NCBI GenBank assembly: GCA_030426085.1 | Contig: JAUHYW010000086.1 | Coordinates: 1 to 41,060 of the forward strand | DNA: 41,060 bases | Direction: 5' to 3' | From: a bacterium | GTDB taxonomy: Bacteria > Myxococcota_A > Bradymonadia > UBA7976 > UBA1532 | Shown: positions 12,019-16,628 of the stretch, piece by piece | How positions within the stretch are numbered: position 1 is the first letter of the stretch | Layout of the letters: every line of letters begins with the position of its first letter | Notes under the pieces: generated by a model | Databases searched by the model: none | The model's input: only the letters and a program-made list of their open reading frames with translations | What the model was told of the DNA's origin: nothing | Made by a program: the position numbers and the translations under genes

Positions 12019-14604
12019 GTGATCCGACATCACTCCCGATTCGGCGCCCCGTGGCCCGCCTTGCTGGCGGCCCTCGCCCTGAGCGGGTGCTACGAAGACA
12101 CCCCCATCCCGACCGATCCGCCGACCGACGCCGCGGCCGAGGCGGGCGACGCCTCCGACGGCTTCGAGGACCCCGACCAGCGCTTGCCGGACCTCGGGGT
12201 CGATACCGACGCGGGGCCGGCGGGCTGCGTCGACGACGGCGAGTGCGGCGCGGGCTGGTGCGCGACCGACGGCACCTGCCGCCCGGCGGCCGAGGCGTCG
12301 GTCTTCGCGACGCCGATGGACGGGCTGCTGCGGGTCGGCGGGGCCTCGTTCGACCTGCTGCCGGGCTACCTCGAGCCGTGGACCGACGCCGCCGGGCCCG
12401 ACTGCCCCGGCAACCGCCCGGGGGTCTTCGACGGCGACCGGTACACCCCGAACCCCGACGACCCCTGCCGGGACGGCTTCGACGACATCGACGGGGACGG
12501 GCGCTTCGCCGCGGTGTGGATGGCCGGGGCCGGGCTCGACCGGCCGGCGCGGGGCATCCACCCCGACCGCCCGCCGGCGGGGCGGGTGGTGCTCTTCATG
12601 CGGGACGACGCGGCGCACCTGCTGGTGACCCTGGACGTCTTCGCCGTCGACGCCGCCCGGGTGGAGGCGCTCGCCGACCGCGTCGGCCGCCGCCTGGGCC
12701 TGCGCCCGGAGCAGATCGCGATCCACGCCACCGGGGTGCGCACCGGCCCCGACGCGGTGGGGCTGTGGGGCCCCTCGCTGACCGCCTCGGGCGAGCCGGG
12801 GGCCCGGGCCCTGCGGGACGCGCTCGACGGCTCGGGGGGGCTGCTTGCCGAGCTGCCCCAGGCCAGCGGCGTCGACCCCGGGTGGTGGGCGGCCCTGCCG
12901 GGGCGCGTCGCCGGCGCCGCCCGGCAGGCGGGCACCGAGGCCGGGCCGGTGGCGCTGCGGGCCGTCGAAGACCGCCTGCCCCTGGCCGGCCCCCGCTTCG
13001 CCGGGGCCATCGAGCTGCCCGACGCCGACGGGGACGGGGTGCGCAACGACGCCGACGACCTCGCCGCGTGGCGCACCGCGCCCCCGGCCCTCGCCTGGGA
13101 CGACCGCCTGCCGGGCGGGGTCGACCCGGTCGTCCGGCTGCTGGCACTCGACGCGGTGGAGACCGGCCGCCCCCGGGTCCTGATCGCGGGGTGGAGCGCG
13201 GCCCCGGCCAGCGCGCCCCCCGCCGACGCGCTGCTCGACGCCGACCACCCCGGCGCGGTGCGGGCCCTGCTCGAAGAGCGCTTCCCCGACGCGACCGCGG
13301 TCTGGCTCACCGGCGCCGCCGGGGATACGTTCCGCGCCGGCGGCGGGGCCCGGGTGGGCGTCGAGCTGGAGGACGGCCGGTTCGAAGGCCCCGACGGGGA
13401 GCCGGTGGATCAGCCGCTCGACGCCGCCGAGGCCGAGGACCCCCCCGCGGCGCTGGCGGCGATGATCGTCGACCGGCTGCTGCCCGCGCTGGAGGACGCC
13501 CCCCGCCAGCCGGCGCGGTTCGAGCCGACCCGGCGCTACGCCTGGATCCCCCTGCACAACCCCCGGATCGGCCTCGCCGCCCGCCTGGGCCTGCTGCCCC
13601 ACCTGCGGGACTGGCTGCGGGGGCGGGTGCCCACCGCCGGCTGGGTCGACGGCGACAGCGCCCCCGGCTGCGGCGGGCTGGGCTGCCTGCGCTATCGGCT
13701 CGACCAGCTCGACCTGGGCCCGGTCGTGCTGCTGACGACCCCCGGCGCGCTCGACCGGGCCTACGTCGACGGCCGCGCCGAGTCCCGGCTGCCCCTGGGC
13801 GACGCCCGCAACCTCGACGACCTCGACCTCGACGGTCAGCCCGACGCGGAGGACGACGAAATCCGGATCCAGGTGCGGGCCGGCGGCGCCGAGCTGAGCC
13901 TCGAGCTGCCCGGCCCGGCCAACCCCCAGCGGTTCCCGGCCATCGGCGGCCTGGGCCGCACCGGCACATGGCTCGTCGGGCGGACCAACGGCGGCATCGG
14001 CTCGCTGCGCAGCCCCGCCGAGTGGATCAACCCCTTCGAGGGCCAGCTCGAGCCGCTGGTGGCGCTGGCCCGAGACGAGCCCGAGCGCAGCCTGTGCGGG
14101 TGGAGTCACCCCTGCGAGGGCGGCGCCGGGCTGGCCGATCTGGTGGACCGCACCTGGCAGGCCCAGCCGGCGGTGCTGGCCGATCTGCCCGGCAGCCGCG
14201 AGCTGCGGCTGGTCGACCCCCCGGCGCTCGACGGCCCGGTGGCGTGGCGCATCGAGGGCCCCGACGGTGAGCCGCGGGCCGAGGGCGAGGCGCTGATCCT
14301 GGGGCCCCGGGACCGGGCCTTCACCGGGGACGTCGATCTGGTGGCGGCGGGGGTCGAGCCGGGGGACATGCTGATCGTGTTCGGCGGCCCGGCCGGCTCG
14401 GCGCTGGCCCCGGTCGAGGTCGCCGGGGTGGTGCCCATCGAGCTGCGCCGGCACCCCAACATCGGCGACGCGTGGCGCTCGCTGGCCCCGGCCGGCGGCG
14501 ATCTGATCTACAACACCGCCTGCGAGCTCATCTACGCCGGCCCCTGCCCCACCCGGCGCCCGGTGGCCGACGACCCCAACAGCGGCCTGCCCCGCACGCC
14601 GTGA
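12019..14604 (+). CDS. Lipoprotein related to neutral/alkaline ceramidases, histidines replaced
   Basis: 861 residues from GTG 12019. Signal peptide with lipobox LSGC (Cys24), then an Asp/Ala/Pro-rich linker and a small Cys cluster (CVDDGECGAGWCATDGTC). The core resembles myxobacterial proteins annotated with the neutral/alkaline non-lysosomal ceramidase N-terminal domain: DIDGDGRFAAVWMAG near 157-171, RVVLFMRDDAAHLLVTLD near 189-206, and IHATGVRTGPDAVGLWGP near 235-252. In the active family the last segment reads like THTHxGPD. Here the two histidines are replaced (TGVR, 238-241). A zinc hydrolase is therefore doubtful and a binding role is more likely. A DADGDGVRNDADD loop may bind calcium. 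The C-terminal ~350 residues are unassigned. Confidence 0.75.
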   Translation: MIRHHSRFGAPWPALLAALALSGCYEDTPIPTDPPTDAAAEAGDASDGFEDPDQRLPDLGVDTDAGPAGCVDDGECGAGWCATDGTCRPAAEASVFATPMDGLLRVGGASFDLLPGYLEPWTDAAGPDCPGNRPGVFDGDRYTPNPDDPCRDGFDDIDGDGRFAAVWMAGAGLDRPARGIHPDRPPAGRVVLFMRDDAAHLLVTLDVFAVDAARVEALADRVGRRLGLRPEQIAIHATGVRTGPDAVGLWGPSLTASGEPGARALRDALDGSGGLLAELPQASGVDPGWWAALPGRVAGAARQAGTEAGPVALRAVEDRLPLAGPRFAGAIELPDADGDGVRNDADDLAAWRTAPPALAWDDRLPGGVDPVVRLLALDAVETGRPRVLIAGWSAAPASAPPADALLDADHPGAVRALLEERFPDATAVWLTGAAGDTFRAGGGARVGVELEDGRFEGPDGEPVDQPLDAAEAEDPPAALAAMIVDRLLPALEDAPRQPARFEPTRRYAWIPLHNPRIGLAARLGLLPHLRDWLRGRVPTAGWVDGDSAPGCGGLGCLRYRLDQLDLGPVVLLTTPGALDRAYVDGRAESRLPLGDARNLDDLDLDGQPDAEDDEIRIQVRAGGAELSLELPGPANPQRFPAIGGLGRTGTWLVGRTNGGIGSLRSPAEWINPFEGQLEPLVALARDEPERSLCGWSHPCEGGAGLADLVDRTWQAQPAVLADLPGSRELRLVDPPALDGPVAWRIEGPDGEPRAEGEALILGPRDRAFTGDVDLVAAGVEPGDMLIVFGGPAGSALAPVEVAGVVPIELRRHPNIGDAWRSLAPAGGDLIYNTACELIYAGPCPTRRPVADDPNSGLPRTP

Positions 14605-14616
14605 GCCGACCGGCCG

Positions 14617-15291
14617 TCAGTCGACCCGCTCGGCGACCTCCGGCCCCTGGTTGCGCACGCTGTTGACCGCCTGGCTGACCCGGTAGATCTCGAGCACCTC
14701 GGCCGGCGTGCCCCGGGCCAGCGCCAGCAGCGCCTCGCGGTCGGCCGCGGGGTCGAGCCAGCGATCCCAGTGGTCGGGGTGCAGGATCACCGGCATCCGG
14801 TGGTGCAGATCGCCCAGCGCGCCTTCCGGATCACAGGTCAGGACCGAGAACGTCTCCAGCGGCTCGGCCCCCGCCTCGGCGTCCTTGGGGGTCCACGACG
14901 ACCAGATGCCGGCCATCGAGAAGACCTCGGCCTCCCGGATGCGGATGAGGTGGGGCACCTTCTGCTTGCCGGCCCGCTTCCACTCGTAGAACCCGGTCGC
15001 CGGCACCAGGCACCGCCGCCGCTTGAACGGGCTGCGGAACGAGGGCTTGTCGGCCACCGTCTCCGCCCGGGCGTTGATCATGCGGGCCCCGATCTTCTTG
15101 TCCTTGGCCCAGTGGGGCACCAGCCCCCAGGCGAGGTCGTCGACCACCCGCCGGTCGTCGACGCGCCGGACCACCGGCACCCGGCTGGTCGGGGGGATGT
15201 TGAATCGCGGCCGGTGCTCGGCCCGCACCTCGGCGTCGTACACCAGCGCGAGCTGGTCCCGGTCGATGGTCAGCTGATAGCGGCCACACAT
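14617..15291 (-). CDS. HMCES/YedK-family abasic-site processing protein
   Basis: 224 residues from ATG 15291, behind GAAGGAGGAG. Cys2 of MCGRYQL becomes the N-terminal catalytic residue after Met removal. The family motifs follow: PRFNIPPTSRVPVVR, WGLVPHWAKDKKIGARMINARAETV, RRCLVPATGFYEWKR, and HHRMPVIL with the conserved His. The family forms a thiazolidine DNA-protein crosslink with abasic sites in single-stranded DNA and so shields them from error-prone repair. Length is normal. It converges on the ceramidase-like gene with only 12 bases between stops. The frameshifted lipoprotein lies 22 bases upstream on the same strand. Confidence 0.95.
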   Translation of the reverse strand: MCGRYQLTIDRDQLALVYDAEVRAEHRPRFNIPPTSRVPVVRRVDDRRVVDDLAWGLVPHWAKDKKIGARMINARAETVADKPSFRSPFKRRRCLVPATGFYEWKRAGKQKVPHLIRIREAEVFSMAGIWSSWTPKDAEAGAEPLETFSVLTCDPEGALGDLHHRMPVILHPDHWDRWLDPAADREALLALARGTPAEVLEIYRVSQAVNSVRNQGPEVAERVD

Positions 15292-15313: not shown

Positions 15314-16212
15314 TCACGGCACGCAGATCTCGAACGCCTGCACCCCCAGCCGGCCGCAGCCCCGGCCGGCGGTCAGGATCAGGGCGGTGTCGTCGGGCTG
15401 GAAGGCGGGCAGGGCGGCGAAGTGCCACTGGTACTCGAACTGCTGGCCCACCGGACCGCCGCTCAGGGTCCAGCCGCCGGTGGGGCTCTCCAGGTCGAAC
15501 TCGGTGGACGCGGCGGCGCACAGCGATCGCCCGAGCACGTAGAACACCGCCGCCTGCACGCCCAGCCCCTGGCTGTCGAACCAGATGAGCAGGTCGTCGC
15601 TGCCGTCGAGCTCGACCGCTCCGGTGTTCGTGCGGCCGACGTCGCAGCCGACCCCGCCCCGGCAGCGGTCGAACACCCCGCAGGCGTCGTTGATGCGGAT
15701 GGAGTAGTCGCACGGCGGGTCCCAATGGTCGACCCGGGGGCTGTCGCTGAACTCATCGTAGCTGATCCGCAGGAGGCTCCAGCCGGGGCCCTGGAGGCAC
15801 GCTCGCGCCCGGGCGGGATGTCGGGGCCCATGTCGGGCGGCGGCGGGGCCATGTCGATCGGGGGCGGGGCCATGTCGATCGGGGGCGGTGCCGTGTCCAA
15901 CGGGCGGGGCTCCATGTCGAGGGGTCGCCCCCGGTCGGGGCCCGAACCGGCGTCCGGATCGGAGCCGAGGTCCACGCCCGGCCCACCGTCCTGCCCCGGC
16001 CCACCGTCCTGCCCCGGCCCGCCGTCGTCACCCGGCGCCCCGTCGACCCGGGCCGCGTCTCCCGGCCCGTCGGCCCGGGGCCCGTCCCCCAGCGTCGGCC
16101 GCACGTCGCGCAGGCGGAAGTCGAGCCGGCCGCCCTCGCCGGCCACGTCGTCCTCGCACCCGGTCGCCGGCCCCCAGGCCAGCAGGCCGATCAGCAGACC
16201 CGCCCGCAGCAT
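15314..16212 (-). CDS. Lipoprotein with an apparent single-base frameshift
   Basis: ATG 16212-16210 overlaps the stop of the hemerythrin-like gene (TGATG). The first frame gives a signal peptide and lipobox (LRAGLLIGLLAWGPATGC), then Asp/Gly/Pro repeats (DGGPGQ, PPPIDMA). Near 15797-15817 sensible sequence moves to another frame: ACLQGPGWSLLRISYDEFSD, then a Cys-containing, Trp/Tyr-rich domain (CDYSIRINDACGVFDRCRGGVGCDVG) ending ...GVQAFEICVP at 15314. The first frame continues as unnatural Ser/Thr/Ala/Arg sequence to 15463. The second frame has no start codon before GTG 15676. Joining them needs one added base or a -1 shift. It is either a disrupted gene, an assembly error in a GC run, or programmed shifting. 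Function unknown. Confidence 0.65.
15845..15886. repeat. 21-bp tandem repeat inside the frameshifted lipoprotein gene
   Basis: Two exact copies of a 21-base unit beginning ggggccatgtcgatcggggg. On the minus strand it encodes PPPIDMA twice, in the linker after the lipobox. A shortened and diverged third copy flanks it. Confidence 0.8.
15977..16012. repeat. 18-bp tandem repeat inside the frameshifted lipoprotein gene
   Basis: Two exact copies of cccggcccaccgtcctgc, followed to ~16030 by a third copy with three changes. The minus strand encodes a DGGPGQ repeat in the lipoprotein linker. Confidence 0.8.
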
Positions 16213-16628
16213 CAGCCCTGGTCGAGCCGGGGCAGCAGCAGGCGCGTCTCGGCGTCGAGGTGGGCCTTGAGCTGCGCCAGCACGCCGCGCACGGTGGTCA
16301 TGAACCGCTCCCGGTCGACCGGCATGTCGTCCCGCACGTCCTGGATCATGGCCAGCAGCGTGCGGTAGTGGGTCGTCAGGTCGCGGTGCTGGGCGAGCAG
16401 GTCGGCGAGCGCCGCGTCGTCGGCGTCGAACACCGAGCGAGCCAGCTTCTCCTGGGCGGGGAAGTGGCGGTCCATATCGGCCTTGAGCACCTGGGCCAGC
16501 CGGTCGAGCTCGTCGAAGCCCTCGTCCCGGGCGAGCAGCTCGACCAGCTCCTCCATCCGCTTCAGCTCCCGCTCGAGCCGCGCGTGCTCGGCGCGCAGCG
16601 CATCTGCGCCGGGCAGTTCGTCGCTCAT
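16212..16628 (-). CDS. Hemerythrin HHE-domain protein
   Basis: 138 residues from ATG 16628, behind a strong AGGAGGTG. The four-helix pattern and its ligands are visible: LRAEHARLERELKRMEE, DRHFPAQEKLARS (HxxxE), LLAQHRDLTTHYRTLL, and LKAHLDAETRLLLPRL (HxxxE). The family binds a di-iron centre and senses or stores O2 or NO, or takes part in iron and redox stress. There is no signal peptide, so it should be cytosolic. Its stop overlaps the lipoprotein start (TGATG), and it follows hsdS by 80 bases on the same strand. Confidence 0.88.
   Translation of the reverse strand: MSDELPGADALRAEHARLERELKRMEELVELLARDEGFDELDRLAQVLKADMDRHFPAQEKLARSVFDADDAALADLLAQHRDLTTHYRTLLAMIQDVRDDMPVDRERFMTTVRGVLAQLKAHLDAETRLLLPRLDQG

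Follow-up and report, generated by a model that had tools for sequence, protein, structure and literature searches.

A lipoprotein gene divided between two reading frames, with one-piece relatives across its phylum

A single lipoprotein gene on the minus strand, at 16212-15314 of the window (the whole stretch of 41,060 nucleotides that was analysed, from a GC-rich, myxobacterium-like organism), is divided between two reading frames by a frame change far beyond chance. We consider it to be an ordinary frameshifted gene, for which a null allele and an assembly error share nearly all of the probability. The initial annotation, which did not name the strand, placed a lipobox and Asp/Pro repeats in one frame and a globular domain in another, and translation of the two frames agrees with that description. 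The joined protein, head plus tail, is the right annotation of this locus, and neither the out-of-frame continuation of the head nor the open reading frame that starts at GTG 15676 should be annotated as a gene.

The head of the gene (15800..16212, minus strand) is read in frame A from ATG 16212 (MLRAGLLIGLLAWGPATGC...) and encodes an N-terminal signal peptide with a lipobox cysteine (...PATGC), as expected of a lipoprotein, followed by a Gly/Asp/Pro-rich spacer (DGGPGQDGGPGQ, PPPIDMAPPPIDMAPPPPDMGPD); the codon model prefers this frame throughout. The residue at position -3 of the lipobox is Ala, a weaker type, and the relatives carry LAAC, LTGC, FGGC or LGGC. Frame A stays open until a stop at 15463, giving 249 aa, of which the last ~111 (15463..15799) form a Ser/Thr/Arg-rich missense tail. 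The tail of the gene (15314..15805, minus strand) lies in frame B, at -1 relative to the head, and reads ACLQGPGWSLLRISYDEF...CDYSIRINDACGVFDRC..., including CLQGPGWSLLRISYDEF...EICVP, as far as the stop at 15314-15316; it encodes a conserved domain of ~160 aa. The nearest upstream stop in frame B is at 16030 and the first start codon after it is GTG 15676, exactly as initially annotated.

The switch itself was located by two procedures. Under a codon-usage model trained on the surrounding genes, a reading that switches once from A to B gains 130 nats over whichever single frame scores best, and the near-equal optimal switch points form a plateau at 15793-15820. A Viterbi gene model that covers all six frames and penalises frameshifts called a single frameshift in the whole window, at 15799-15801. 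Considering also the junction PPGRTPC in the homologue L014, we place the net -1 change in the interval 15793..15823, most likely at about 15799-15805. Past this point the coding score is -107.5 nats for frame A against +70.8 nats for frame B, so that two adjoining segments in different frames each have native codon usage, and the frame A continuation, previously described as unnatural, scores accordingly. The site falls in a GC-rich, palindromic, self-complementary stretch (CGCCCGGGCG).

In 841 kb sampled from the same genome, in which 68 of 105 simulated single-base losses (~65%) were detected, we found four strong internal frame changes, the one in the window being the strongest; the assembly is therefore not generally prone to indels. 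One of the others, at position 2127 of a type I restriction-modification locus (L037:661-2687), joins the hsdM and hsdS coding regions, the old frame having no stop for 183 nt; either an ordinary overlap of two genes or a frameshift could account for it. The remaining two (L031:11588 and L084 near 14636) are weaker than that of the window in the codon model, and no Pfam match was found for the pieces of the L031 change.

Both segments are united in intact homologues. Of 58 genomes searched, 11 have the tail domain, counting that of the window itself, and a profile search of 379 genomes from the phylum found it in 43; in the 42 of these other than the window's own, no stop lies inside the matched domain. 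Judged on contigs long enough to show the start, lipobox, spacer and domain are encoded in one open frame in L012-L018, L064 and L067, and no homologue was found that ends in the first frame, an outcome that would have told against the joined protein. Head and domain share a frame in every full-length relative that was read through. L014 (...IPDLGIPGVPPGRTPCDLWGEGW...) and L011 (...APGVPAGRTPCARGPGW...) are in frame straight over the place where the window copy switches. As the relatives are in one piece and these two are continuous across the junction, a single lipoprotein gene was the ancestral state; as all read-through relatives are in one frame and stops are lacking in the 42 genomes, the frameshift is a singleton.

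The window copy thus has in common with the relatives L012-L019, L064 and L067 a lipobox, a low-complexity spacer and the C-terminal domain, and differs from them in being split in frame. Some relatives have Cys-rich-repeat spacers, with CGDG...CDDGN repeats after or instead of the Asp/Pro spacer. No relative was found on plasmids, and when named genomes were scanned with the domain the only match was the MAG of a congener.

This congener (G001, contigs L010 and L020), the only one found, is represented by a draft MAG of about 10x coverage, and supplies the evidence on selection. Substitutions between the two copies are distributed 19/15/35 over the three codon positions of frame B. The dN/dS ratio is 0.35 in frame B and 1.5 for the same DNA read in frame A, compared with 0.46 in the neighbouring intact hemerythrin-like gene. 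To judge from these substitution patterns, the tail was under purifying selection in frame B, which is its protein-coding frame.

In the congener the locus order hsdM-hsdS-hemerythrin-lipoprotein tail-SRAP is kept. In its assembly, the syntenic gene (L020:4970-5399) is without ~480 bp, a loss that removes the start codon, signal peptide and spacer and shortens the domain by its first 28 residues. The one congener found thus lost its head through a separate deletion, and on this comparison of sequences the gene appears to be dispensable in the genus. Amino acid replacements number 10 in the congener against 3 in the window copy with L011 as outgroup, and 6 against 0 with the outgroup majority; these counts, although small, fit an older loss in the congener and a recent or absent loss in the window.

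We suggest that the ancestral gene encoded an exported lipoprotein in which a disordered Asp/Pro spacer joins a lipidated anchor to a folded C-terminal domain of ~160 aa; with such an architecture the domain would be held out from the cell envelope on a flexible stalk. The frame would then have been shifted by a net -1 through the change of a single base at about 15793-15823, and translation from 16212 would now yield the lipidated head and spacer followed by the missense tail ending at 15463, the domain not being made. The reading that we prefer, at slightly better than an even chance, is that this is a real one-base allele, null or polymorphic, of a gene dispensable in the genus, presumably with a non-functional product; it would be recent, since the domain still shows the marks of selection. 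We hold to it with little more than balanced confidence, as the tail has no second lesion and has evolved slowly up to the present, and an assembly error would look alike.

Such an error, in which the gene is intact and in one piece in the cell and one base was miscalled in the GC-rich, self-complementary stretch, is almost as likely as the real allele. The conserved tail frame free of other lesions, the slower evolution of the window copy than of the congener's and the palindromic composition of the switch site all speak for it, and so does the literature: homology-validated singleton frameshifts are pseudogenes or sequencing errors, and mostly errors are to be expected (Antonov et al., PMC3711429). 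The rarity of strong frame changes in this assembly stands on the other side, together with the independent breakage of the congener's gene, which makes breakage within the genus plausible. With one frame transition in one genome, intact homologues and no conserved recoding motif, the window gene resembles the singleton "fs-genes" of class "H-pseudo / Error" (Antonov et al. 2013, PMC3711429), and it shares the pseudogene-or-error ambiguity of that class without notable difference.

The null allele and the assembly error, both proposed in the initial annotation, thus stay, whereas its third proposal, a programmed -1 shift, is not supported: the frameshift is a singleton and has no structural stimulator. 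Programmed -1 ribosomal frameshifting or transcriptional slippage would give a spacer-only lipoprotein besides the full protein, and we consider this very improbable. The direction of the shift is right and no stop interrupts either frame in the region, as in the dnaX-type programmed -1 frameshift, in which both are likewise open past the site. The nearest heptamer of the form X_XXY_YYZ is GGGCCCC at 15829; it is in the right phase and sits at the border of the interval that codon usage permits. It would take a lineage-specific -1 slip on this GC heptamer for one gene to yield both a spacer-only lipoprotein and the full one with its domain, and such a slip would be most unexpected. The same heptamer recurs at 15943 of the same gene, where no shift is wanted, and composition alone predicts 0.93 heptamers per 138 codons, with a 6% chance of one within 12 codons. 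Moreover, GGGCCCC is of GC type, unlike the A-rich heptamers of the dnaX type and the seven A-rich ones among those over-represented at bacterial frame transitions (PMC3711429). The RNA downstream of the shift does not fold more stably than shuffled sequence (z +1.6 and +0.9) and thus revealed no stimulatory structure, so that the window gene, unlike the dnaX type, has neither a hairpin better than shuffles nor a slippery site conserved across genera. The frame transition is found in no relative: those read through are all in one piece, and the congener is without the region.

Translation of the tail as a separate protein, whether from an internal start at GTG 15676 or by re-initiation there, also seems highly doubtful. 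This codon does open frame B, and the congener has a headless tail as well; however, a start there would remove the first ~45 conserved residues of the domain, the congener does not share the codon (GIFDRC there, GVFDRC in the window), and in neither case would the product be exported.

The tail represents a C-terminal lipoprotein domain that, at its frequency in the phylum, is still unnamed and without a Pfam entry: by itself it matched nothing in Pfam or NCBIfam, and none of the 11 members of its family matched in Pfam. Ten columns are invariant in the alignment of the domain (window 15314-15805 minus, L011-L019, L064 and L067), three of them cysteines. The sole match among PDB profiles, a phage distal tail protein, was weak (60 residues, E 0.005) and was not used. 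An AlphaFold model built for the tail from an alignment of two sequences had a mean pLDDT of 59.8, and its Foldseek matches to CBM-like beta-sandwiches all had E > 0.001 and TM <= 0.44. Given this low-confidence model and these weak matches, we describe the domain only as probably beta-rich.

Finally, the gene directly upstream (16212..16628, minus strand) encodes a hemerythrin-like (HHE) protein (Pfam Hemerythrin, 1.5e-9), and its TGA stop overlaps the ATG of the lipoprotein in the sequence TGATG, from which the translation of the lipoprotein is probably coupled to that of the hemerythrin-like gene. Downstream lies a gene for an SOS response associated peptidase (14617..15291, minus strand; Pfam SRAP, 3.6e-74), in the same order as in the congener (synteny with L020). 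A further lipoprotein-like protein of 861 aa (12019-14604, plus strand), for which no Pfam or NCBIfam match was found, has the lipobox LSGC and an Asp-rich start, and adjoins the SRAP gene in the congener too.
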